Positions 1 to 29,189 of a DNA stretch of 64,000 bases are shown here, one piece after another. The stretch is from Salinispora cortesiana (GTDB taxonomy: Bacteria > Actinomycetota > Actinomycetes > Mycobacteriales > Micromonosporaceae), in contig NZ_AXVR01000008.1 in assembly GCF_000484695.1 (NCBI RefSeq), positions 1-64,000 of the forward strand, in the 5' to 3' direction. The position numbers were made by a program, and so were the translations under genes. The number at the start of each line of letters is the position of its first letter. Within the stretch, counting starts at the first letter, position 1. The notes beneath the pieces are model-generated. The model was given only the letters and a program-made list of their open reading frames with translations, did no database searches and was not told the DNA's origin.

Positions 1-974
1 GGGTGGCGTTCGGTGTGGTAGGTGTCGAGCAGGTCGGGCGGCGCCCAGCCGTGCACCGCCGCCGCCAGCTTCCAGCCCAGGTTCACCGCGTCCTGCAAGC
101 CAGCGCTGAGTCCCCACGCCGCCAGCGGCGGCATCTCGTGCGCCGCGTCGCCGGCCAGGAAGACCCGGCCCCGCCGGTACTCCTCGGCGACCGCGGCCGC
201 GTTGCCGCAGGCCCACAACCACGGTGCCGACCCGTGGTGCAGGGACTCACCGGTGAGGCGTTGCCACGCATCGGCGACCTCGGCAAACGTCAGCGCGTCC
301 GGATCTGGGTTCGGCGGTAGTCCTCGGTCGTGGAGCACGATGCGGTAGCGACCGTCCCCCAGTGGCGTGCACACCACCATGCCGCCGCCGGGCCGGCGTT
401 CGCCGATCGGACGAGGGCGTAACTCGACTCCGGTGATCTCCGCGGTGTACATGCCCCGGGTGGCTGCGGGGCCGGAGGCTTTGATCCCGGCCAGCGCCCG
501 GACGGTGCTCCGCGCGCCATCACAGCCGACCAGGTAGTGGGCCCGCACCTCAGTGCCTCCGCCTGGCTCGTCGAAGGTCGCGACGACGCCGTTGCCCGTT
601 TCCCGCACGCCGGTGAGCTCGTGTCGCCGTACTATCGGAACGCTCTGTTCGGCCAGCCAGTCCGCCAGCATCTGCTCGGTGCGGGCCTGCGGCAGGCCCA
701 GGATGCCGCTGTGGTCGTCGTTGAGCCGGCTGAGGTCGATGCGTACGCCGCCGAAATGTCCCATCGGACCCCAGCGGATGCCGCCCAACCGTGCGAGTAG
801 GCCGCGCTGGTCCAGTGATTCGGCGGCACGCCGGTTGAAGCCGAGAGCACGGGACTCGCCGGTGGCGGCGGCGAGGCGGTCGTACACCCGTACCCGCGCG
901 CCGCCCAGGTGCAGTTCAACGGCGAGCATCAGGCCGACCGGCCCCGCACCCACCACGATCACGTCGGTTTCCAT
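1..974 (-). CDS. FAD-dependent aromatic monooxygenase, C-terminus cut off by window edge
   Basis: PHBH-type flavin hydroxylase expected to oxygenate the aromatic polyketide. The reading frame starts at ATG 974, after an AAAGG-containing leader, and is open to position 1 (about 324 residues seen). The N-terminus has the Rossmann motif VGAGPVGLML. The second FAD-binding region reads GDAAHEMPPLAAWGLSAG and leads into DAVNLGWKL. In its three sister enzymes here this loop is HxHLPxGxQ, so PLAAWG is a divergent version. It is transcribed away from the SDR gene at 1191. Substrate and position of hydroxylation cannot be read from the sequence. The C-terminal thioredoxin-like part lies outside the window. 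Confidence 0.9.
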   Translation of the reverse strand, partial: METDVIVVGAGPVGLMLAVELHLGGARVRVYDRLAAATGESRALGFNRRAAESLDQRGLLARLGGIRWGPMGHFGGVRIDLSRLNDDHSGILGLPQARTEQMLADWLAEQSVPIVRRHELTGVRETGNGVVATFDEPGGGTEVRAHYLVGCDGARSTVRALAGIKASGPAATRGMYTAEITGVELRPRPIGERRPGGGMVVCTPLGDGRYRIVLHDRGLPPNPDPDALTFAEVADAWQRLTGESLHHGSAPWLWACGNAAAVAEEYRRGRVFLAGDAAHEMPPLAAWGLSAGLQDAVNLGWKLAAAVHGWAPPDLLDTYHTERH

Positions 975-1190
975 TCCCCGGACCTTTCCGCCTCGCGGCC
1001 GGATAATCGCGACGCCAAAGTATCCGCCGACGCCCCTCGGATCAATGGTGACCGACGGTTGGCGGTAATTGTTCGACTGCGGATTTCGCTCGGTTGAACC
1101 AACGCTATTGCGCGGCAATTTCAGAGATGCCGCATTTGCGGTTGGCCGTTCAGCATGGACGCGACAGTGCGACGGAAAGGAATTGTGGAC
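975..1190. promoter_or_regulatory. Divergent promoter region with N11-spaced palindrome at 1071-1099
   Basis: This region separates the flavin monooxygenase (minus) from the SDR gene (plus). It carries GTTCGACTG at 1071-1079 and CGGTTGAAC at 1091-1099, an inverted repeat with an 11-nt spacer. The same arrangement occurs at 28103-28131 and in weaker form in two other divergent regions of the cluster. An operator role is inferred. Confidence 0.55.
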
Positions 1191-1919
1191 GTGCCGGTCG
1201 AGAAGATCGCGCTGATCACTGGCGCGAACAAGGGAATCGGGTACGAGATCGCGCGTCAGTTGGGGGAGCGAGGGCATACCGTCCTGGTCGGGTCCCGGGA
1301 CGAGACCCGGGGTAGGCAGGCGGTGGACTCCCTGGCGGCCCAGGGCATCAGGGCAGTACCGGTGCGCCTGGACGTGACGGATCCGACCTCGATCTCGGCG
1401 GCTGCGGCGGAGATCGAGCAGCGCTATGACCGCCTGGACATCCTGGTCAACAACGCCGGCATCGCCGGTACCGCCACCGGTGTGCCCAGCACGGTACGCG
1501 TCGATGACCTCCGCCAGGTGTACGAGACCAATGTCCTCGGGGTGGTGTCCGTGACCAACGCCGTGCTTCCGCTGCTGCGTCGGGCGGTGGCCGGGCGGGT
1601 GGTCAACGTCTCCAGCCACCTGGGCTCCCTGACCCTGAACTCGCAGTTGGACTCGCCGCTGGCTGGCGTCAACCTGATCGCATACCAGTCCTCGAAGACC
1701 GCCCTGAACGCGATCACTGTGGCGTACGCCAAGGAACTGCGGGGCACGCCGATCAAGGTGAACGCGGCGAGCCCTGGCATGGTGGCCACGGACCTCAACG
1801 GCCACCGGGGAAACCAGACTCCCGCGGAAGGCGCGGCGATCGCGGTCCGGCTGGCGTTGCTGGACGAGGCGGGGCCTTCCGGCTGCTGCCTCTCCGCGGC
1901 CGGCGTCGTGCCCTGGTGA
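1191..1919 (+). CDS. Short-chain dehydrogenase/reductase
   Basis: NAD(P)H-dependent SDR of about 242 residues. It shows the cofactor motif TGANKGIG near the N-terminus, NNAG in the middle, and the catalytic Tyr-Lys pair in YQSSK preceded by the Ser-containing VSS strand. The reading frame extends back to 1155. GTG 1191 is preferred because GGAAAGGA lies about 9 nt upstream, and GTG 1185 is the alternative. The sequence resembles carbonyl-reductase-like SDRs more than the polyketide C9 ketoreductase encoded at 3906-4691. A tailoring reduction of a quinone or ketone is inferred. It is followed after 53 nt by an NmrA-like gene on the same strand. Confidence 0.85.
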
Positions 1920-3905: not shown

Positions 3906-4691
3906 TCAGTAGTTTCCGAGGCCGCCACAGACGTTGATCGCCTGCGCGGTGACCGGAGCGGCCGCGTCGCTGACCAGGTAGCCGACGAGGCCGGCGACCT
4001 CCTCGGGGGTGGAGTAGCGACCCAGTGGGATCTTCGCCTGGAATCGCTCCAGGATCTCCGCCTCGGTCGTCTCGAAGTGCGCGGCGTACCCCTGCCGTAC
4101 CCGCTGCGCCATCGGCGTCTCGACGTAGCCGGGGCAGACCGCGTTGACCGTGACCCCGGTCTTCGCGAGCTCCAGCCCCAGCGCCTTGGTGAAGCCGACT
4201 ACCCCGTGCTTGGACGCGGAGTAGGGCGCGGCGAGCACCACCCCCTGCTTACCCCCGGTTGACGCGATGCTGATGATCCGTCCCCAACCGCGCTCCAGCA
4301 GCTGTCCCGACCGGAGTACCTCACGGGTGACCCGGAAGACGCTGTTCAGGTTGGTTTCGACGACGTCGTACCAGAGCTTGTCCTCAATGGTGGCGGTCAC
4401 CCCGCCGCCGCTGCGCCCGGCGTTGTTTACCAGGACGTCAACGTGTCCGTACCGCGCGACTGCGGCGCCCACGAGGCGCTCGACGTCGGCCTGACGCCGG
4501 ACATCCGCGACAGTGCCGGCGGCCTGGTGGCCGCCGGCCCGCAGTTTGCCGACCGTCTCCTCGACGGTCTCCGGAGTTCGCGCACAGAGGAAGACCTTGA
4601 GGCCGCAGCGGGCGAGCGTCTCCGCGACCGCCAAGCCGATTCCACTGGTTCCACCGGTGATCAGCGCTACTCGCTGTTCGTTCTCCGCCAT
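3906..4691 (-). CDS. Type II polyketide ketoreductase (C9-type)
   Basis: SDR-family ketoreductase of 261 residues that reduces the C9 carbonyl of the nascent polyketide on the ACP. Features are TGGTSGIG (NADPH), VNNAGRSGGG, the SIASTGGKQG strand with the catalytic Ser, the YSASK catalytic pair, VCPGYVETPM, and the C-terminal INVCGGLGNY. These are characteristic of ActIII-like enzymes. Start ATG 4691 follows AAAGG. It is the first gene of a three-gene minus-strand operon (ketoreductase, TcmI cyclase, DsbA-like) and faces the O-methyltransferase across a shared promoter region. Confidence 0.95.
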   Translation of the reverse strand: MAENEQRVALITGGTSGIGLAVAETLARCGLKVFLCARTPETVEETVGKLRAGGHQAAGTVADVRRQADVERLVGAAVARYGHVDVLVNNAGRSGGGVTATIEDKLWYDVVETNLNSVFRVTREVLRSGQLLERGWGRIISIASTGGKQGVVLAAPYSASKHGVVGFTKALGLELAKTGVTVNAVCPGYVETPMAQRVRQGYAAHFETTEAEILERFQAKIPLGRYSTPEEVAGLVGYLVSDAAAPVTAQAINVCGGLGNY

Positions 4692-4881
4692 GGGGTTGCC
4701 TTTCCCGAATACGGTGTCGCGGCAGTATGTCAACGATTTGCGAAATGTCGCTCGAGCCTCGGTGGAAAGCGCTGTTCCAACCGCGTCAACTCGTCAGTTG
4801 AACGACCTGGTGGGGCTTGCGACCAGAAAACGACGCGGCCTATCGTCTGGCATCTCACTATCGCCTCGGAGGAAAAGGATT
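4692..4881. promoter_or_regulatory. Divergent promoter region with conserved half-site CAGTTGAAC
   Basis: Spacer between the ketoreductase (minus) and the methyltransferase (plus). It contains GTCAGTTGAAC at 4793-4803. The same 11-mer is at 28121-28131, and on the minus strand at 18398-18408. The matching left half at the 11-nt spacing (TTCCAACCG, 4775-4783) fits the consensus GTTCAACTG at 6 of 9 positions. Confidence 0.55.
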
Positions 4882-5919
4882 ATGTCCGCAGTACCTGCCG
4901 CTCCCGTGGTGCGGGACAATTCCGCCGCCTACCTATTACTTGACCTGATCCAGGGCTCGGTGATCACTCAGGCGATCTCGGTCGCGGCCAAGCTCGGCGT
5001 CGCCGATGTTCTCGCCGCCGGCCCGTTGCCGGCTGAGGAGATCGCCAAACGCGTGGACTCCGATCCGGAGGCGACCTATCGGCTGCTGCGTACGCTCTCC
5101 GGCTGCTCGGTGTTCGCGCTGCGACCGGATGGCCGTTTCGCGCTGACCCCGATGGGCGAGGCACTGCGCGATGATGCGCCAGATTCCATGCGTGGCATAG
5201 CGATGCTCATGGGGCATCCGCTGCTCTGGGAGGAGTGGGGGCACCTGATCGAGTCGGTGCGCACCGGGGCAGCCAGCCTGCCGAAACTGCGGGGCATGGG
5301 CGCCTTTGAGTTTCTGATGGCGAATCCGGCGTACGCGGCCGAGTTCTTCCAGGGCATGGGGAGCCTCTCCGGCGCGGAGACCGCCCCCGTGCTCGCCGCG
5401 TACGACTTCTCGCGGTTCCGTACCGTGGTGGATGTCGTCGGTGGACGTGGCACGCTGCTGGCCGGCATCCTCGCCCAGACCGGGGGCTCCCGCGGAATCC
5501 TGTTCGACAACGAGGTCGCCACCGCGGACGCACCAGCGGTCTTCGCCTCGGCCGGCGTCGGTGACCGAGTGACGATCGAGCACGGCGGTCAGTTCGACCC
5601 GCTGCCGACCGGTGCCGACGCCTACGTGCTCAAGCACGTCCTGCATGACTTCCCGGAGCCCGCCTGCCGGCAGCTGCTGCACAACGTGCGGGAGGCGATC
5701 GCTCCAGGCGGGACCATGCTCGTGATCGAGTATGTGCTCGAGGAGCAGAATGAGCCGCACATTGGCAAGATCATAGATCTGTGGCTCCTGCTGCTGCTCG
5801 GCGCCAAGGAGCGCACCCGGCCGCAGTACACCGAGCTGTTCGCCGAGGCCGGCCTGAAGGTTACCCGGGTCATCCCGACCGCCTCACCGGTCTCGATCAT
5901 CGAGGCGGTTCCGGTATGA
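4882..5919 (+). CDS. SAM-dependent O-methyltransferase (DnrK/TcmO type)
   Basis: Small-molecule O-methyltransferase of 345 residues with an N-terminal winged-helix dimerisation domain (about 15-110) and a C-terminal Rossmann SAM domain. The SAM motif reads VVDVVGGRGTLL (about 175), followed by LFDNE and a FDPLPTGADAY segment. The histidine of LKHVLHDF is in the place of the usual catalytic or substrate His. The frame is open far upstream (4513), but ATG 4882 with GGAGGAAAAGG before it gives the normal family start. It heads the oxygenase/cyclase run to 12171. The methylated oxygen is not predictable. Confidence 0.92.
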   Translation: MSAVPAAPVVRDNSAAYLLLDLIQGSVITQAISVAAKLGVADVLAAGPLPAEEIAKRVDSDPEATYRLLRTLSGCSVFALRPDGRFALTPMGEALRDDAPDSMRGIAMLMGHPLLWEEWGHLIESVRTGAASLPKLRGMGAFEFLMANPAYAAEFFQGMGSLSGAETAPVLAAYDFSRFRTVVDVVGGRGTLLAGILAQTGGSRGILFDNEVATADAPAVFASAGVGDRVTIEHGGQFDPLPTGADAYVLKHVLHDFPEPACRQLLHNVREAIAPGGTMLVIEYVLEEQNEPHIGKIIDLWLLLLLGAKERTRPQYTELFAEAGLKVTRVIPTASPVSIIEAVPV

Positions 5920-15369: not shown

Positions 15370-16872
15370 TCAGAAGGTCCCGAAGTACTCGCGGTGCTCC
15401 CACTCGGTGACGACATCGGTCGCCGGGTGTTCCGTCGCGCACCAGGCGCGGAACCGGGACGCCTCGCTCTCTTTGAGCTTGCGCAGGCAGTTCTTCAGTG
15501 GCGTGCCGAGCAACTCCTCCGCACGGGTGCTCTCGCCGAAGGCGGCCAGTGCCGCGTCAAAGGAGGCTGGCAGCGCCGGGGCCCGCGTACCAGCCGCCGC
15601 GGCACCCGGCGAGTCCAGCCCGGCCAGGCCCGCGTGTAGCTGCGCGGCGATGACCAGGTACGGGTTGGCGCACGGTTCCCCGATCCGGTTCTCGACGTGG
15701 GTCGCGCTGCCGGCGTTGAACACCCGGACCATGGCGCTGCGGTCCTCCTCGCGCCAGTCGACGGAGGTGGGAGAGAGCGGGAACCGCGGCGCCAACCGGT
15801 GGTAGCCGTTGACGGTTGGGACGGACAAGAGGCAGAACTCGCGTGCGTGGGCCAGCAGCCCCCGCACGTAGGCCTCGCCCGCGGCAGAAAGGGGGCCCGA
15901 GGTGCCGTCCTCCGGCTCGAACAGGTTGCGGTTCGTCGTTGTGTCGACGACCGACTGATGCAGGTGCCACCCGCTTGGGTCGAACCCTTCCAGCCCGGGG
16001 AGGGTCATGAACGACGCGTGGTAGCCGCGGCGCCGGCACTCCTGCTTGACCTGGGTCCGGAACAGCAGCATGGCGTCCGCCGCCGCCAGCGCCAGCATCG
16101 GGCCGAAGGTCGTCTCCAACTGCCCCGGCCCGGATTCGTGTTCGATGGTGCGCAATGGCAGGCCGAGTGCCATGAGCATGGCCGCCAGGGGGTCTGCGAT
16201 GTCGGCCACGACGTCGTAGTAGCTGTCCAGGTTGAACTGGTATCCGGCGTTCATCGCCGCCACCGCCGGGGCTGCCCCCTGCCGGCCGAACCCGTTGCCC
16301 GCGTTACCCACCGGACCGGAGACCAGGCGAGTCAGGTACCACTCGACCTCGAGTCCAATCACGGGTGCCAGGTCGCGTTCCGCGTAGCGGGCACAGACCC
16401 GGCGCAGGAGGTGACGGGTCGCCAGCGGGTGTGGCGAGCCGTCCCGGAGGTACTCGTCGCCAACCACCCACGCGGTCCGCCGTTGCCCGCGGGGCAGCAC
16501 CTGGAACGTGCGTGGATCCGGGACCAGGACGAAGTCACCGGCGCCGAGTAGTTCCGCGACCCCGACGCCGGGGTCGGTGCGGAAGTCCACGGCGACAGCG
16601 TGCCCGGTATCGAAGAGGAACGGCCCGGGGCTGAAGTCCAGGCCGTTGCGCAGCACGGTACGGAAGACGTGCGCCGGCACGGTCTTGGAGCGGGCCAACC
16701 CGTGCGGATCACCGAAGACGACCCGGACCAGGTCGACCTCGTCGAGCGCAGCCTCGACCTTCTCGGCGGCGGCGATCTGTTCATCGTTCCAGTGGCCGAA
16801 CTCGGCCACGAACGAGGGCCGCCCGACGCCGCTGTCGCTACCGGGCAGGGACCAGGTTCTGGACATCGTCAT
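15370..16872 (-). CDS. Glutamine-synthetase-like ligase (glutamylhydrazine-forming)
   Basis: GS-fold ATP-dependent ligase of 500 residues, carrying FGDPHG, the metal-ligand segment VIGLEVEWYL (about 155-165), EHESGPGQLE (about 250), GWHLHQS, NGYHRLAPRF and the nucleotide/substrate segment ENRIGEPCANPY. In kinamycin and fosfazinomycin biosynthesis a GS homologue attaches acetylhydrazine to the side-chain carboxylate of glutamate. I infer the same reaction here from context. The ATG at 16872 overlaps the amidase stop (ATGA), so the ligase and amidase are coupled. The frame opens as far back as 17088, inside the amidase gene. Confidence 0.88.
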   Translation of the reverse strand: MTMSRTWSLPGSDSGVGRPSFVAEFGHWNDEQIAAAEKVEAALDEVDLVRVVFGDPHGLARSKTVPAHVFRTVLRNGLDFSPGPFLFDTGHAVAVDFRTDPGVGVAELLGAGDFVLVPDPRTFQVLPRGQRRTAWVVGDEYLRDGSPHPLATRHLLRRVCARYAERDLAPVIGLEVEWYLTRLVSGPVGNAGNGFGRQGAAPAVAAMNAGYQFNLDSYYDVVADIADPLAAMLMALGLPLRTIEHESGPGQLETTFGPMLALAAADAMLLFRTQVKQECRRRGYHASFMTLPGLEGFDPSGWHLHQSVVDTTTNRNLFEPEDGTSGPLSAAGEAYVRGLLAHAREFCLLSVPTVNGYHRLAPRFPLSPTSVDWREEDRSAMVRVFNAGSATHVENRIGEPCANPYLVIAAQLHAGLAGLDSPGAAAAGTRAPALPASFDAALAAFGESTRAEELLGTPLKNCLRKLKESEASRFRAWCATEHPATDVVTEWEHREYFGTF

Positions 16873-18290
16873 CGCTCTCCTTGGAAGTCGCCGCCCGGCC
16901 GTGGCGTCGGGCGGGCCAGCTCCGCTTCCAGCCGGCTGGCTGCCCGGAGCACCAGGTCGTCGTCGCCGACGCGCCCCACGAGCTGAACCCCGACCGGGAG
17001 CCCGTGGGGCGTCACGCCGGCGGGCAGGGAGAGGGCCGGCTGGCCGGTGAGGTTGAACGGGTAGGTGGCGGGTGACCACGCGAGCCACCGCAGGCCCTGC
17101 GGGTCAGTGGTGGCGGGCGGGGCGACGGCGTCGGCGGCGAAGGGCATGATCGGGACGGTCGCCATCGCCAGCAGGTCGTAGCGCTCCATCACGCGGTGCA
17201 GCCGGGCCCGCAGTGCCATCCGGGTCTCTTCGGCGCGGAGGACAGCGGCGCCGGTGAGCGTGCGCCCGTACCGGACGAGCGCAAGCCGGCCCGGGTCGCA
17301 GAGCTGGTCTTCCGTCGGTGCCGCTGCAGCGGCCTCGGCGGCAGCGAGGAGGTCCACGAGCGCGTCGTAGGGGTCGGTGAACGGCACCGCGATGCGTTCG
17401 ACCCGGTGTCCCAGTCGGGCCAGCACCGGTTCAACCATGCCGGTGACCGCACGGACCTCGTCGGTCGTCCCAGGGAACTCGAGCCAGCCGATCCGTAGCG
17501 CGGCCGGGGCGGCCGTTGGCGTGACCGCTCCGGCCACCGAGTCCGGGTCCTGGCGGTCCGGTCCGACCAGCACCGCCATCAGGACGGTGATGTCGGCGAC
17601 CTCGCGTGCCAGCGGCCCCAGGTGGGACAGGCGCTCGGCGCCGGGTGGCACGTAGGGGACCCGGCCGAAGGACGGCTTGAACCCGACCACCCCGCAGAAT
17701 GCCGCGGGGATGCGGATCGACCCAGCCCCGTCGGTACCGATCGCCGCGGTGCTCAGCCCGGCTGCCACCGCGGCGGCCGAGCCGCCGCTCGACCCGCCGG
17801 CGGTCCGCTCCGGTGCCCACGGGTTGCGGGTCGGGCCGGCGACCCGGCTTACCGTGCTGGCGCTCCACCCGTATTCCGAGGTCGCGGTCTTGCCCACCAG
17901 GATGGCGCCCGCCGCCCGGAGCCGGGCCACCGCCGGTGCGTCCACCGCCGGGCGGCGGTTCGGCACCAGTGACCCGCGTCGGGTGGGTAGGTCCCGGGTC
18001 TGGATGAGGTCCTTGACCGCGATCGGGATCCCGAGTAGTGGCCGCTCTCGGAAGGCGACCTCGCCGAGAGTGTCGAGAAGCCGGTCGGCCGCCTCCGCCT
18101 CGTACCGGGCGCGGTCGTCGGCGACCGCGACGAACGCCCGGATCGTCGGGTCGATCTCCCCGACGGCCGCGAGCACGTTCCCGAGATGCTCGGCAACTGT
18201 CGAACCGCCGGTGAGAAACAGCTGTCTCGTCTCCCGGACAGACCGGCAAACCGGGGTTCGAATGGTGGGAAGCGTGAATGCGGGCACCAC
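16869..18290 (-). CDS. Amidase signature family hydrolase
   Basis: Amidase of about 473 residues with the complete Ser-cisSer-Lys triad: Lys in IAVKDL (about 93), the Gly-Ser loop GGSSGGSAA (about 166-173) and the nucleophile Ser in GTDGAGSIRIP (about 191). In the fosfazinomycin/kinamycin scheme an amidase removes the acetyl or glutamyl group from the hydrazine carrier. That role is inferred here. The frame is open back to 18470, but homology starts near TVAEHLGN and no clear RBS fixes the start. The GTG codons at 18305 and 18290 are the candidates. It is coupled to the downstream GS-like gene by a 4-nt overlap. Confidence 0.88.
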   Translation of the reverse strand: MVPAFTLPTIRTPVCRSVRETRQLFLTGGSTVAEHLGNVLAAVGEIDPTIRAFVAVADDRARYEAEAADRLLDTLGEVAFRERPLLGIPIAVKDLIQTRDLPTRRGSLVPNRRPAVDAPAVARLRAAGAILVGKTATSEYGWSASTVSRVAGPTRNPWAPERTAGGSSGGSAAAVAAGLSTAAIGTDGAGSIRIPAAFCGVVGFKPSFGRVPYVPPGAERLSHLGPLAREVADITVLMAVLVGPDRQDPDSVAGAVTPTAAPAALRIGWLEFPGTTDEVRAVTGMVEPVLARLGHRVERIAVPFTDPYDALVDLLAAAEAAAAAPTEDQLCDPGRLALVRYGRTLTGAAVLRAEETRMALRARLHRVMERYDLLAMATVPIMPFAADAVAPPATTDPQGLRWLAWSPATYPFNLTGQPALSLPAGVTPHGLPVGVQLVGRVGDDDLVLRAASRLEAELARPTPRPGGDFQGER

Positions 18291-18523
18291 CCAAATAAAG
18301 GCCACAGTCGCTCGTCGGGCAAGTGTTGCGGGGAGGGCGTGGTGGTCCGGATGGCAACTCCGAAGAAAATACCTTCGGTACTCCTCGGGACCGCTTTGTT
18401 CAACTGACGAAAAGCTACGGAAGCCCAGGAGGCAAGTATGGATAAGTTTTGGATCAGTGCTGTACTGCACGCCGGAAGAATCGCTACTCTGCGGCTTGTG
18501 GGTTCGGTTCTCGTTAGGGGGTC
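18291..18523. promoter_or_regulatory. Divergent promoter region of the hydrazine cassette
   Basis: Lies between the amidase (minus) and the lyase (plus). GTTCAACTGAC at 18398-18408 is the exact reverse complement of the GTCAGTTGAAC elements at 4793 and 28121. The opposite half at the 11-nt spacing (18418-18426) matches poorly. A second pseudo-palindrome, GTGCTGTACTGCAC, lies at 18457-18470 nearer the lyase gene. The amidase start, and so the left boundary, is uncertain. Confidence 0.5.
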
Positions 18524-19816
18524 ATGGTCATGATTTCTCGTTACTCTCTGCCGGAGATGGCCGACCTCTGGTCGGACGAGGCACGCTACACCACCTGGTC
18601 GCAGGTGGAGCTTCTCGCGACCCGGGCGCAGGCACTGCTGGGCCGGGTCCCCGAGCCGGCCCTGGCCGACATCCAGCGAGCCCGGGTGCCGTCGGTGGCG
18701 CGGGTGGCCGAGCATGAGCGCCAGCGGGACCACGAGATTCTCGCCTTCCTCGCGGCCTTCTGCGAGGACATCCCCGCGGACTCAGCCCGTTGGGTCCACC
18801 TCGGCATGACCAGTTACGACCTGGTGGACACCGCGCTGGGGGTTACCCTCGCCCGCGCCTGCGACGTGCTGCTTGCGGCGGTGGTGCGGCTGCGCGGCGT
18901 GCTGGTGGATCAGGCGCTCGGGCACTGGGGGACGGTCTGCATCGGCCGTACCCACGGCATGCACGCCGAGCCCACCACGCTCGGTCACAAGCTCGCGGGC
19001 TTCGCCTTCGCGTTGGACCGTTCCGTGCGGCGGCTGCGAGCGGCGCGTACTGAGGTCGCGGTTGGCACGATCTCCGGGTCCGTCGGGACCTATGCGCTCA
19101 TCGACCCCTTCGTCGAGGAGCATGTCTGCGCCGAGCTCGGCCTCGGGGTAGAGCCCGCGCCATCCCAGGTCGTGGCCCGGGATCGACACGCACAGCTGCT
19201 GCACGCCCTGGCCACGTTGGGTGCCTGCGTGGAGCAGGTGGCCACCGAGGTCCGACTGCTCTCGCGCAGCGAGGTCCGCGAGGTGGAGGAGCGCCGCACG
19301 GTCGGCTACCAGGGCTCCAGCGCCATGCCGCACAAGCGGAATCCGACCACCAGCGAACGTCTGGTGGGGCTGGCCCGGCTGCTACGCGGGTACGCGGGTA
19401 CGACGTTGGAGAACGTGGCGCTGTGGCACGAGCGGGATCTGTCCCACTCCTCCGTGGAGCGGGTGGTCCTACCCGACGCGATGATCGTTGCCCACTACCA
19501 GGCGAGTCGCGCTGCGGATCTGGTGGCGGGGATGGAGGTCTTCCCGGACCGAATGCGGGCCACGGTTGATCAGAACGGCGGTGTGGTCTACAGCTCCGCG
19601 GTCCTGGCCGATCTGCTGGCGGGCGGCACCGAGCGGGAACGCGCCTACCGGTCGGTGCAGGCCGCCGCGAACGGCGCCGTCGCCGGCACCGGAGATTTCG
19701 CTACCCTGCTGAGGGCCGAGGGCATCGATGTCGCGCCGCTGCGCCCGGAGCTATTCCTGGTCCACCACGATGTCATTCGCAAGCGATTGGAAAACCTCCG
19801 TGACCTGGCACATTGA
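18524..19816 (+). CDS. Adenylosuccinate-lyase-like enzyme (hydrazinosuccinate lyase type)
   Basis: Fumarase/aspartase superfamily lyase of 430 residues. The signature loop GSSAMPHKRNP (about 264-274) contains the catalytic Ser. GRTHGMHAEP (about 141-150) carries the active-site His, and HLGMTSYDLVDT (about 92-103) binds substrate. The location is far from purine genes and beside an acetyltransferase and a GS-like ligase. It therefore probably releases hydrazine (or a nitrogen oxide) and fumarate from a substituted succinate, as described for the fosfazinomycin/kinamycin lyase. It is the first gene of a two-gene plus-strand unit. Start ATG 18524 or 18530. Confidence 0.88.
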   Translation: MVMISRYSLPEMADLWSDEARYTTWSQVELLATRAQALLGRVPEPALADIQRARVPSVARVAEHERQRDHEILAFLAAFCEDIPADSARWVHLGMTSYDLVDTALGVTLARACDVLLAAVVRLRGVLVDQALGHWGTVCIGRTHGMHAEPTTLGHKLAGFAFALDRSVRRLRAARTEVAVGTISGSVGTYALIDPFVEEHVCAELGLGVEPAPSQVVARDRHAQLLHALATLGACVEQVATEVRLLSRSEVREVEERRTVGYQGSSAMPHKRNPTTSERLVGLARLLRGYAGTTLENVALWHERDLSHSSVERVVLPDAMIVAHYQASRAADLVAGMEVFPDRMRATVDQNGGVVYSSAVLADLLAGGTERERAYRSVQAAANGAVAGTGDFATLLRAEGIDVAPLRPELFLVHHDVIRKRLENLRDLAH

Positions 19817-20201: not shown

Positions 20202-20286
20202 CGGGCACCGGTGACCAGCGACGAGCGGCGGTGGACCGCCCTCCGGCCCCTCCCGTCGGTGTCCGCTGTCCGGGTGTGTGCAGCGC

Positions 20287-25811: not shown

Positions 25812-26969
25812 TTACTCGTCAGTCGGATCATTCGGATTGTTGATATCTCGCCGAGCGGCAACCAGTGTCTCCATTGTCCGGACGATGTCGGCTGGGGTCG
25901 GAAGTGCGGCCAGCTCGGCGGCGAGGGCCTGCGCCTGCCGGGCGTACCGGGGGTCGGCGAGTAGCTCTCGGCTGCGAGCGGCCAGCACGTCCGCCAGTTC
26001 GTGGTCGGCCTGGTGGGGGGCGGGGATCGTCACTGCGGCGCCGAAGGTGGACAGAGCGTCGGCGATCGCCCTGGTGTGGGTGTTCGGGGGAGTGATCACC
26101 TGCGGCACCCCGGCGGTGATGACAGCCATCGTGGTGGTGGCGCCGCCGTGGTGGATGGCCAGGTCACAGGTGGGTGCGACGGTGTCCAACGGGATCCAAC
26201 CGATCCGGATGCCGTCCGTCGTCGGGCCGAACTCCTCGGCGACCCGAGTGGGTGCCGCGATCACCACCTCGGCGTCTACGGCGGTGAGCTGCTTCGCCAG
26301 CCGTCGCAGTGAGCGGCCGGCGAGCATACGATGGTGCGTTCCGGAGGTGATCAACACCCGGGGGCGGCCTTGTGGGCGGGTGTATGCCCACCGCTGGAGG
26401 CGGCGCTGGGGGTTCGTGGCCACGTAGCGCATGGGGTGCGCGTCGGTGGCAGAAGACGACCGTAGCGACGGCGGGCTGACATCAACCAACAGGTCGGGCT
26501 CGGGCAGCCCGGCCAGACCCCGGCGGCTCAGCTCTGGCGCGAGCTCCTCCGCCGCCACCGGGTCGATCTCCGCCATCGGAATTCGCAGATACTCGATGTG
26601 ACGCACGAAGGGGATCTCCCGTGCCGCGGCGAGCAGTCCCGCCGCGTAGCTCATCGAGCTACCGACGATGGCGTCCGGCGTCCAGTCCTGCGCCAGCACA
26701 CTGAGGCGTGCCAGCGTGGCGGCGGCCATCCTGCCCAGTCCGCGGCCGGTCACCACCACCTCGTGCGGTGAGTCGACGGTGGCGAGGAAGCGCCGGATCG
26801 ACTCCGACGTGATCGACACCCCGGGTAGGCCGACCGTCTCCACCGCGTCGATGAGCGGCTCGTTCGTGGCCACCAGTACCTCGTGCCCCGCGTTGCGTAC
26901 CGCATGGGCCAGGGCGGCGATCGCGTACACGGTGACGTGGCTGCCAGTGGTGAGGAAGAGGAATCTCAT
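25812..26969 (-). CDS. Glycosyltransferase, GT-B (GT1-like) family
   Basis: NDP-sugar glycosyltransferase of 385 residues for antibiotic glycosylation. The N-terminus MRFLFLTTGSHVTVYAIAALAHA is the acceptor-domain start. The C-terminal nucleotide-sugar domain has GWIPLDTVAPTCDLAIHHGGATTTM (about 260-285) with the conserved HHGG, followed by GVPQVITPP. It is a paralogue of the transferase at 32795-33835, which has the near-identical APTCDLAxHHGGAxTTM. The 4-nt overlap (ATGA) with the upstream methyltransferase implies coupled translation. Two glycosyltransferases would suit a product bearing two different deoxysugars. Confidence 0.93.
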   Translation of the reverse strand: MRFLFLTTGSHVTVYAIAALAHAVRNAGHEVLVATNEPLIDAVETVGLPGVSITSESIRRFLATVDSPHEVVVTGRGLGRMAAATLARLSVLAQDWTPDAIVGSSMSYAAGLLAAAREIPFVRHIEYLRIPMAEIDPVAAEELAPELSRRGLAGLPEPDLLVDVSPPSLRSSSATDAHPMRYVATNPQRRLQRWAYTRPQGRPRVLITSGTHHRMLAGRSLRRLAKQLTAVDAEVVIAAPTRVAEEFGPTTDGIRIGWIPLDTVAPTCDLAIHHGGATTTMAVITAGVPQVITPPNTHTRAIADALSTFGAAVTIPAPHQADHELADVLAARSRELLADPRYARQAQALAAELAALPTPADIVRTMETLVAARRDINNPNDPTDE

Positions 26970-27985
26970 CGCTGGGCGTTGGTCTTCGTTGCGGTGCTGC
27001 CAGCCTCGGGGCGGCATTCGGTGACGAACTGGCCCGACGGACTGTGACCGGATGCCGTGACGGCGAGGCCGGCGCGGGCGGCGAGGTCCCGGAACTCATC
27101 CAGGGTCCGGGGCTTTCCGCCGGTCTGCACCATCATCAGTAGCCCGGCCGAGGCGGCCGCTCGCCCCGGGGAGACCCCGCCGATCACGACCACGCGGCCG
27201 CGCGGTGCCGCGGCCTCGGCGCAGCGGGTGAGCAGCGCGACAGCCTGCTCGTCGGGCCAGTCCAAGAGCAGGCGTTTGAGCAGGTAGACGTCGGCTCCGG
27301 CGGGAAGCGGGTCGAAGAAGCTCTGCCCCTGGACGGTGGCCCGGTCGGCAACCCCCGCGGCCGCGAAGACCTCGGTGGACCGGGCGACTGTTCGGGGCAG
27401 GTCAACCAGGGTGCCGCGGACCGTCGGCCGGGCCCGCAGGATTTCGGCGAGCGTCTCGCCGGTCCCACCGCCCACGTCAACGACGTGGCGGACCTGAGAC
27501 CAGGTGTCGTCGAGGAGGACAGCCGGGTCCGATGCCTCGCCGGCCCGCCGCCCCATGTTCGCGTCGTAGCTGGCCGCGAGGTCGGAGTCGGCATCGAGGT
27601 CGGCCCAGTAAGAGCGACCGAAGACAGTCTGGTAGCCGGGCTCTCCGGTCCGCACCGTCGCCAGCAGTCCGTTCCAGGCGGCGGCGCTGCGGCCACCGTG
27701 ACCGTCCAGAGCCAGGCCGTGCAGCGGGCCGGACCTCAGCAGGGAACGGGCCGCCTCGTTTAGGGCGAACTCACCCTCGACCGGCTCCTCGAAGACGCCC
27801 CTGCCGACCAGGTGGCGCAGGACCCGAGCCAGGCAGTCCCGGTCACACTCTATGTGGCGCGCGAGTTCCCCGATCTCGGTGACTCCCGCCGCCAACTGCT
27901 CGGCCACGCCCAGGGTTACCACCACGCGTAGGCTCCACGGTGTCGCCAGGTCACTGAGTGAGTCGACATTTACCTTTTCTGGCAC
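26966..27985 (-). CDS. SAM-dependent O-methyltransferase
   Basis: Methyltransferase of 339 residues in the same family as the one at 4882. The N-terminal dimerisation/winged-helix domain (about 10-100) starts DSLSDLATPWSLRVVVTLGV. The SAM motif is VVDVGGGTGETLAEIL (about 175), followed by FFDPLPAGADVYLLKRLLLDWPD. The usual catalytic His in LKHVLHDW is here Arg (LKRLLLDW), so it may not act as a normal general-base O-methyltransferase. Start GTG 27985 with GGAGGGA upstream. It is the first gene of a two-gene unit with the glycosyltransferase. Confidence 0.88.
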   Translation of the reverse strand: MPEKVNVDSLSDLATPWSLRVVVTLGVAEQLAAGVTEIGELARHIECDRDCLARVLRHLVGRGVFEEPVEGEFALNEAARSLLRSGPLHGLALDGHGGRSAAAWNGLLATVRTGEPGYQTVFGRSYWADLDADSDLAASYDANMGRRAGEASDPAVLLDDTWSQVRHVVDVGGGTGETLAEILRARPTVRGTLVDLPRTVARSTEVFAAAGVADRATVQGQSFFDPLPAGADVYLLKRLLLDWPDEQAVALLTRCAEAAAPRGRVVVIGGVSPGRAAASAGLLMMVQTGGKPRTLDEFRDLAARAGLAVTASGHSPSGQFVTECRPEAGSTATKTNAQR

Positions 27986-28262
27986 TGCGTCGTCCCTCCA
28001 CTGTTGGGATGGCCCGCGGTGGCCCGCTTCGAGGCCATTATCGGCCTTCTGTTGCCTGTTCGAGAGTGTGTTCAAGCCCGTTTTTGGAGCACCCGAAAAA
28101 CTGTTCATCTGTCGACGACAGTCAGTTGAACGTGGGCACACCACAACTGTGGAGTTGTGGTGTGCCGGACCGGATGTCAGACTCCGTCGAGATCGAGTAC
28201 GTCCACACGTCGAGCGCAGAAGAGCGTTTTCGACTACCTTCCCCGGGCGAAAGACGGTCGAG
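27986..28262. promoter_or_regulatory. Divergent promoter region with two inverted repeats
   Basis: Between the methyltransferase (minus) and sugar methyltransferase (plus). It contains GTTCATCTG at 28103-28111 and CAGTTGAAC at 28123-28131 (11-nt spacer), the best copy of the cluster-wide palindrome. A perfect 13-bp inverted repeat, GGCACACCACAAC at 28135-28147 with its complement at 28154-28166, follows immediately. The two lie four bases apart, so competing or cooperative protein binding is plausible. Confidence 0.6.
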
Positions 28263-29189
28263 ATGACAGGTGTATACCGAGCGAGCCGACAGTGGGAACG
28301 CATCACTCGGCACTGGGTCACCGAGGAGGCGGCGGTCGATCTCACGCACTTCAAGTCGGAGCGGCCGAACCACAAGATGTCGTTGTGGGACCCTGAGGTG
28401 AACGGCGTGCGCTATCTCAAGACGCTGGTACACAATCTGGCGACCACCCTTGAACCGGACGACTGGGCGCGGTTACGTCGGACGGCCCGGCGTGAGGTGG
28501 GTGATCCGGTTGCGGTGCGGTGGCACGGAATGCAGGTCTGCCTGGACTACCTACAGGCCACGCTCGAGGTCGGGTTCATCGAGCGGAGCGTCGACCTGCG
28601 GGGCTCCCGGGTGCTCGAGATCGGAGCCGGCTACGGACGGACCTGTCACACCCTGCTGTCGAACCACGACATCGCCGCGTACTGCATCGTGGATCTGCGC
28701 AGCACCATGCGATTCAGTCGTCGCTATCTGCGTGTGGTCCTGGACGACGTTCAGTTCGCGAAGCTCCGTTTCGTCCCGGTGGAGGCCGGGGACGTGGGAC
28801 TGGCGCTCAGCGAAAGCGACTTCGACCTCGGTATCAACATCAACTCGTTCGCCGAAATGACCCCAGAGACCGTACGCTGCTATCTCGATTTGATCGACCG
28901 GCGGTGCGCGGCCCTGTATGTGAAGAACCCCGTTGGCAAGTACCAGGACCGGAGCCTGGACGGGCACGTGGAGGGCGACGAGGCCCGATGGCGGGCGATG
29001 GAGACCGGTCTACTGCGTCAGGTCCTGGATATCCACGATGACCAGGCGGTGCGGGCCGCCGTGCCCGGGTTCCTTGCGGCCTACCGGCCCGGACCCGACT
29101 GGCGCGATGTCGTTGATGCGTGGGCTGTGCCGTGGAGCTTCTACTGGCAGGCCGTCTACCGCAGAAAGCGATCGGACAGCAGTGGCTGA
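28263..29189 (+). CDS. Putative sugar O-methyltransferase
   Basis: SAM-dependent methyltransferase of 308 residues of the putative sugar O-methyltransferase type. The SAM motif is VLEIGAGYGRTCHTLL (about 120), followed by CIVDLRSTM and DLGININSFAEMT. The C-terminus ends VPWSFYWQAVYRRK. A 3-O-methylation of a deoxysugar (as in oleandrose) would fit the surrounding sugar genes, but this is inference. ATG 28263 gives a sensible protein, although the preceding RBS is weak (the frame is open from 27852). It starts the sugar operon to 31934. Confidence 0.82.
   Translation: MTGVYRASRQWERITRHWVTEEAAVDLTHFKSERPNHKMSLWDPEVNGVRYLKTLVHNLATTLEPDDWARLRRTARREVGDPVAVRWHGMQVCLDYLQATLEVGFIERSVDLRGSRVLEIGAGYGRTCHTLLSNHDIAAYCIVDLRSTMRFSRRYLRVVLDDVQFAKLRFVPVEAGDVGLALSESDFDLGININSFAEMTPETVRCYLDLIDRRCAALYVKNPVGKYQDRSLDGHVEGDEARWRAMETGLLRQVLDIHDDQAVRAAVPGFLAAYRPGPDWRDVVDAWAVPWSFYWQAVYRRKRSDSSG

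Follow-up and report, generated by a model that had tools for sequence, protein, structure and literature searches.

StrR is known as the regulator of streptomycin biosynthesis. Its target is given in PMC8406272 as the inverted repeat GTTCGACTG-N11-CAGTCGAAC (GTTCGACTGN11CAGTCGAAC), and for the chloramphenicol cluster the same source describes binding of the StrR homologue CmlR to a divergent promoter region that contains a site of this kind. The glycopeptide relatives of StrR are reported to bind GTCCAR-N17-TTGGAC, and binding to the own upstream region is described for Bbr and AoStrR1 (PMC7852140, PMC6022936). Furthermore, PMC10886168 names NovG of the novobiocin cluster a StrR-like activator, lists Lom15 of the lomaiviticin cluster among the StrR-like regulators and describes the regulators of nenestatin and lomaiviticin as a clade. 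Operators of this Lom15/nenestatin clade were described in none of the literature matches listed.

The DNA analysed here, referred to as the window, comprises 64,000 bases with a G+C content of 69.4% and represents the start of contig C8 of a 5.18-Mb Salinispora genome that is distributed over 204 contigs. The Pfam and NCBIfam matches of the cluster include two ketosynthase genes, an acyltransferase, a LnmK-like hot-dog domain, FAD oxygenases and a glutamine-synthetase-like gene as well as an amidase, an adenylosuccinate-lyase-like gene, a DUF3050 gene, glycosyltransferases and deoxysugar genes, and we take this gene set to be a lomaiviticin-type (diazobenzofluorene) type II polyketide cluster. 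The regulatory system is of a known kind, namely a StrR-type regulon in a lomaiviticin-type cluster, with Lom15 as a regulator already classed as StrR-like.

The four palindromic sequences that the earlier note had located in the window were all recovered as described, including the poor second half of the fourth. Site 1 (1071-1099; GTTCGACTG-N11-CGGTTGAAC) is a full StrR-type box between the 5' part of a FAD-dependent aromatic oxygenase gene (1..974, minus strand), which extends past the contig edge, and a SDR gene (1155..1919, plus strand); its spacer is N11 in this genome and in G060 and N12 in the other four aligned genomes. The GTG codon near 1191 may be the true start of the SDR gene, since the frame is broken upstream of it in G060. 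Site 2 (4775-4803; TTCCAACCG-N11-CAGTTGAAC), with a perfect right arm and the degenerate left arm TTCCAACCG, is located between a SDR/ketoreductase gene (3906..4691, minus strand; frame open to 4733, with the ATG at 4691 as the likelier start) and an O-methyltransferase gene (Methyltransf_2; 4882..5919, plus strand; start from conservation). Site 3 (28103-28131; GTTCATCTG-N11-CAGTTGAAC), whose right arm is perfect and whose left arm has one mismatch, separates a second O-methyltransferase gene (Methyltransf_2; 26966..27985, minus strand; likely start GTG at 27985, frame open to 28375) from the gene of a NanM-type sugar O-methyltransferase (28263..29189, plus strand; start from conservation, frame open from 27852). 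Site 4 (18398-18426) consists of the perfect left half GTTCAACTG at 18398-18406 and the sequence CGGAAGCCC with only four of nine matching positions, and is placed between an amidase gene (16869..18328, minus strand; frame open to 18470) and the adenylosuccinate-lyase-like gene (18530..19816, plus strand; frame open from 18524). A hairpin sequence, CACACCACAACTGTGGAGTTGTGGTGTG, was additionally noticed at 28137-28164, a few bases past site 3; relatives retain it in part, and some of their changes look compensatory by eye. At gathering scores, the Rfam search of the window yielded nothing.

The strands assigned by Pfam confirmed that all four sites lie between divergent genes, with the strand of the oxygenase gene at 1-974 being deduced from DNA similarity and from Pfam matches in the G043 counterpart. 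The longest open reading frames run over sites 2, 3 and 4; the alignments with relatives revealed indels or stop codons inside the match in these regions, so the true gene starts are located further in, and with corrected starts all four sites fall in spacers. In the case of the amidase, the true start is at or inside about 18330, because the matches of some relatives begin only there or hold a stop codon further out.

The left part of the cluster is absent from the window. The cluster copy of the relative G043 is 90.5% identical to the window over 49.5 kb, and contig C46 was taken as the missing left part because it is 88% identical over 17.5 kb to the G043 stretch directly left of the window counterpart. 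The cluster of this genome is accordingly split between contigs C8 and C46; neighbouring similar FAD-oxygenase genes may have broken the assembly, as the first 94 bases of C46 (L038:1-94) match two places in G043. Contig C46 contributed two further boxes. One (C46:4977-5005) is located between the start of a FAD-oxygenase domain and a divergent peptidase-C26 gene, with the longest frame of the oxygenase overlapping the box, and the other (C46:8853-8882), with an N12 spacer, is located between two genes of the same direction, upstream of a NDP-hexose 2,3-dehydratase gene. The site list of the earlier note therefore stands for the four positions in the window and has to be modified in that site 4 counts as no more than a half-site in Salinispora and that two boxes are added, resulting in a total of five boxes and one half-site in the cluster. 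Likewise, the proposed N11 spacing is joined by N12 and, outside the genus, by N10. The same part of the cluster on C46 also carries a SARP gene (L038:10424-11377) and a gene for an AraC-type regulator (L038:8988-9824). In the cluster copy of G015 (L027), about 7.7 kb of extra DNA was observed opposite window positions 20241-20284, ahead of an ABC transporter gene.

With respect to the consensus GTTCRACYG-N11-CRGTYGAAC, sites 1 to 3 and the box at C46:4977 show zero to two mismatches, the box at C46:8853 is exact with the N12 spacer, and site 4 represents a half only. The cluster shares with the described StrR and CmlR systems the 29-bp inverted repeat GTTCGACTG-N11-CAGTCGAAC, a cluster-encoded StrR-like regulator and sites in probable divergent promoter regions. 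It differs from them in that the arms favour GTTCAAC over GTTCGAC (35 A to 7 G in 42 half-sites from outside the genus), that N12 and N10 variants occur, that the pathway is of the diazo-type angucycline kind and that five boxes and a half-site are present. The glycopeptide regulators Bbr, Dbv4, Tei15* and AoStrR1, as far as they are described in the sources named above, have in common with this system the 29-bp geometry (GTCCAR-N17-TTGGAC versus GTTCRA-N17-TYGAAC) and several promoters per cluster, whereas the third base of the half-site is C in the glycopeptide type and T here. As T occupies this position in both arms of sites 1 and 3, and likewise in each of the 42 training half-sites from outside the genus, the boxes do not belong to the glycopeptide (Bbr) subtype. 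The site of NovG is GTTCRACTG-N11-CRGTYGAAC, and the pathway is that of an aminocoumarin, in contrast to the present one. Two glycopeptide-type boxes (GTCCAR-N17-YTGGAC) were observed beside a StrR-like gene at L077:1116-1144 and L077:1265-1293; as these adjoin the gene, the subtype of the box may follow the subtype of the regulator.

The rarity of the motif was examined in the whole genome. The 11-mer GTCAGTTGAAC, which the earlier note had reported at 4793 and 28121 on the plus strand and at 18398 on the minus strand, was confirmed at these three positions, and these are the only copies in the 5.18-Mb genome (two in the reversed control). No further match was detected in the window even with one mismatch, at an expectation of 0.58 matches with at most one mismatch, and 4 of 100 shuffled sequences reached the number of three. 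The 11-mer alone is not specific, since it is contained somewhere in 35 of the 61 genus genomes; the matches located in the cluster copy are two of two in G043, one of two in G015 and none of one in G060. The full consensus with at most one mismatch was found at three sites genome-wide, all of which belong to the cluster (two in the window and one on contig C46), which corresponds to a binomial probability of 1.7e-6 for a confinement to approximately 1.2% of the genome. With at most two mismatches, seven sites were detected, including four in the cluster, and with at most three mismatches the number increased to 47 versus 26 in the reversed control, so that this class is mostly background. The N12 variant yielded three sites with at most two mismatches, which equals the control, and only its lone exact match, C46:8853-8882 in the cluster, is telling. 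Equally good sites elsewhere in the genome, a concern of the earlier note, were thus few. Moreover, a half-site weight matrix trained on 21 boxes from outside the genus ranked sites 3 (28103; 32.5), 1 (1071; 30.6) and 2 (4775; 21.2) as the top three in the window and assigned scores of 30.6 and 25.4 to the boxes on C46, compared with 9.3 as the best score in the reversed control and none of at least 12 in 68,661 bases of control loci. As the boxes used for training had been picked by means of this consensus, the matrix is an independent test only in part. Site 4 scored 9.8 with this matrix, which is at noise level and below a chance match at 17429 (10.2).

To compare the conservation of the sites, six genomes were aligned over each spacer and the mean pairwise identity was calculated for the left arm, the right arm, the spacer of the box and the rest of the intergenic DNA. 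The resulting values were 0.96, 0.96, 0.75 and 0.79 for site 1, 0.96, 1.00, 0.80 and 0.85 for site 2, and 0.82, 1.00, 0.60 and 0.73 for site 3. The arms of sites 1 to 3 are therefore conserved above their spacers, as would be expected if a protein recognises the two arms. At site 4 the values were 1.00, 0.44, 0.72 and 0.75, with all nine columns of the left half being invariant and the right half not being conserved. In the orthologous amidase/lyase spacer of seven clusters from outside the genus, belonging to Actinoallomurus (2), Streptomyces uncialis and Actinomadura (4), a full box with at most one mismatch was present in every case, the spacer being N11 in six clusters and N10 in the seventh; the amidase match, taken at its longest protein extent, covers the box in L055 and L061. 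The invariant left half, the loss of the right half and the full box outside the genus suggest that site 4 of Salinispora is the remnant of a box, a half-site that is functional as such, or a half retained as a -35 element. Around the lom15 homologues of seven loci outside the genus, the arms with at most two mismatches were found 11 times at N11, twice at N12 and once at N10, with at most two matches at any other spacer length from 0 to 30. The conservation in related clusters, on which the earlier note had placed weight, was hence evident both from the arms in the six genomes and from the loci outside the genus.

The StrR-like regulator gene is located outside the window at C46:199-1305 and encodes 368 amino acids. 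With regard to cluster, family and position, the deduced protein would correspond to the published Lom15. Close relatives of the regulator gene from Salinispora fenicalii, S. vitiensis and S. pacifica are 93-95% identical, and the orthologues of the C46 regulator in three relatives show 77-95% identity. In agreement with StrR-like proteins of approximately 350 amino acids with a central AsnC-like HTH motif, Lom15 revealed weak AsnC-type HTH matches at about 198-242, which are below the Pfam cut-offs, and a structural model of moderate quality built from 13 sequences (mean pLDDT 65.6) placed helices at 198-240; a poor earlier model from four sequences (mean pLDDT 46.6) was set aside. A Foldseek search with the model listed Noc, ParB and KorB among the best matches (E 2e-5, probability 1.00) at low TM-scores, and a PDB profile comparison gave a weak match to Spo0J (E 0.006). 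Pfam ParB_N had no match in Lom15; this model detected one gene in each of four genomes and none in this cluster, indicating that it does not detect Lom15.

In G043, lom15 occupies the third position in a row of minus-strand genes that begins at site 1, behind two FAD oxygenase genes, whereas in this genome the gene is found on contig C46. The gene order fits the description of Lom16 and Lom17 as a pair of oxygenation enzymes in PMC4506494. The position of lom15 in this row makes a feedback through site 1 likely. In Actinomadura, a box with one mismatch was found directly upstream of the regulator gene in all four loci.

The co-occurrence of box and regulator was examined in 61 genus genomes, in which StrR-like genes were called with an E value of 1e-10 or better from 32 scored candidates per genome, so that some genes may have been missed. 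A StrR-like gene was found in at least 11 of the 61 genomes, and all 11 contain a box with at most one mismatch within approximately 35 kb of the gene. Across the 61 genomes, 50 sites with at most one mismatch were counted, compared with two in the reversed control; some such site is present in 18 of the 50 genomes without a detected StrR-like gene. Exact boxes occur in seven of the 11 genomes with a StrR-like gene versus one of the 50 without (Fisher p 6e-6).

Promoter elements were searched on the eight sides of the four window sites. A plausible pair of -35 and -10 elements was found for three of them, at sites 1 and 2, at a distance of 13 to 41 bp beyond the box, and nothing convincing was detected on the other five, including both sides of site 3. 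The predicted promoter of the FAD-oxygenase operon (1017..1045, minus strand; TTGATC-N17-TACTTT) would place the centre of the box about 75 bp upstream of the transcription start, and that of the O-methyltransferase gene (4817..4846, plus strand; TTGCGA-N18-TATCGT) about 64 bp upstream. A weak candidate promoter of the SDR gene at site 2 (4706..4733, minus strand; TTGACA-N16-TATTCG) has lost its -35 element in G060 and would leave a very short leader. The placement of the elements beyond the box is as expected for an activator that would touch RNA polymerase. At site 4, the left half itself may be the -35 element of the amidase gene (TTGAAC-N17-TACCGA). A corresponding reading of sites 1 to 3 as promoters of an alternative sigma factor, with the TTGAAC of an arm serving as -35 element, was considered by eye and dropped, because no common -10 element follows.

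The explanation that is very probably correct is that the palindromes represent StrR-class operators, at which a Lom15 dimer would activate the flanking promoters, including that of its own operon. It agrees with the earlier proposal of a single pathway regulator on two half-sites about two helical turns apart, which the few genomic matches and the conservation favour. A simple chance similarity in a GC-rich genome would be in line with the background character of the three-mismatch class, with the noise-level score of site 4 and with the sites in genomes lacking a detected StrR-like gene, but it is opposed by the confinement of the best sites to the cluster, by arms that are conserved while their spacers drift and by the recurrence dominated by N11 outside the genus; for sites 1 to 3 it was rejected by the shuffles, the whole-genome reversed controls and the spacer scans. 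Even for site 4, the invariant columns of the left half and the full boxes in the orthologous spacers speak against chance, and we regard the probability of this explanation as negligible.

Type II PKS clusters are often SARP-driven, and the presence of both the SARP and the AraC-type gene in the cluster part on C46 raises the question whether one of these proteins binds the boxes, with Lom15 acting elsewhere. SARPs, however, take direct heptamer repeats, whereas the boxes are inverted repeats that match the published StrR target and track StrR-like genes across the 61 genomes, and a role of the SARP or the AraC-type regulator at the boxes is accordingly very improbable. The consensus and weight-matrix scans detected no box at the minimal PKS genes, and for this reason it might be guessed that a second regulator, the SARP encoded on C46, serves these genes. 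Besides activation by Lom15, the boxes could partly counter silencing by the nucleoid protein Lsr2, which would be an added layer and not an alternative; for the StrR homologue CmlR, countersilencing of Lsr2 through the promotion of transcription is reported from the chloramphenicol cluster (PMC8406272), and such a contribution appears rather doubtful here, with perhaps a minor chance of being right.

In the StrR-type mechanism that is favoured by these considerations, the operators are 29-bp and sometimes 30-bp inverted repeats of the sequence GTTC(A/G)AC(T/C)G-N11(12)-C(A/G)GT(T/C)GAAC, which are most likely occupied by a dimer of Lom15 with its putative ParB-like N-domain and HTH motif. From boxes ahead of the -35 elements, for the most part in divergent promoter regions, Lom15 would recruit RNA polymerase, and the oxygenase, methyltransferase, amidase/lyase and sugar genes would thereby be switched on together. 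As the box at 1071 faces the gene row holding lom15, a positive feedback would result. Lom15 therefore probably turns on the antibiotic-making gene cluster of this marine bacterium.

Boxes were also found inside StrR-like genes. The analysis covered 44 StrR-like open reading frames from 43 loci, comprising 15 Lom15-like and 29 more divergent ones; L050 and L072, which contain the same genes as L026 and L038, and class-wide matches without a locus were left out, as were the StrR-like genes of G031:C39, G011:C5 and G037:C41, whose coordinates give no box with at most one mismatch inside any of them. A box with at most one mismatch is contained in nine of the 29 divergent frames (L066, L067, L068, L069, L075, L076, L078, L088 and L089) and in none of the 15 Lom15-like frames; the matches printed for the Lom15-like L049 and L051 fall before the start position of Lom15 and were not counted. 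All nine internal boxes are located in one frame at the position of Lom15 residues 174-175, directly before the HTH motif, and no other box with at most two mismatches is present in these frames. The nine include two near-duplicate pairs, leaving about seven independent cases by eye, and L066 to L069 owe their inclusion to an internal box observed beforehand; in the class-wide set of 23 divergent frames, which was not picked in this way, five contain an internal box. When codons were redrawn synonymously with the protein kept, an equally good box appeared in 0.1 to 3.3% of the draws per gene, and the protein sequence alone thus hardly explains the internal box. The Lom15 clade is devoid of internal boxes and instead has a box at the operon promoter or directly upstream of the gene. 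No report of a StrR site inside a gene was found among the literature matches listed, a coverage outside of which the original StrR paper falls. There is about an even chance that many StrR-like regulators keep an operator within their own gene. The parS site is located inside the parB gene, and the internal StrR box recalls such an arrangement. If the internal boxes are functional operators, part of the family would sense or brake its own transcription in the gene body, and the question arises for what reason a subset of the StrR-like genes harbours its own box within the coding region.

Taken together, the analysis defines a regulon for a lomaiviticin-type cluster with one likely activator, five boxes and a half-site, from which the minimal PKS genes are set apart. 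Beyond this cluster, the StrR box can serve to assign StrR-like genes to the clusters that they target across the Actinomycetes.
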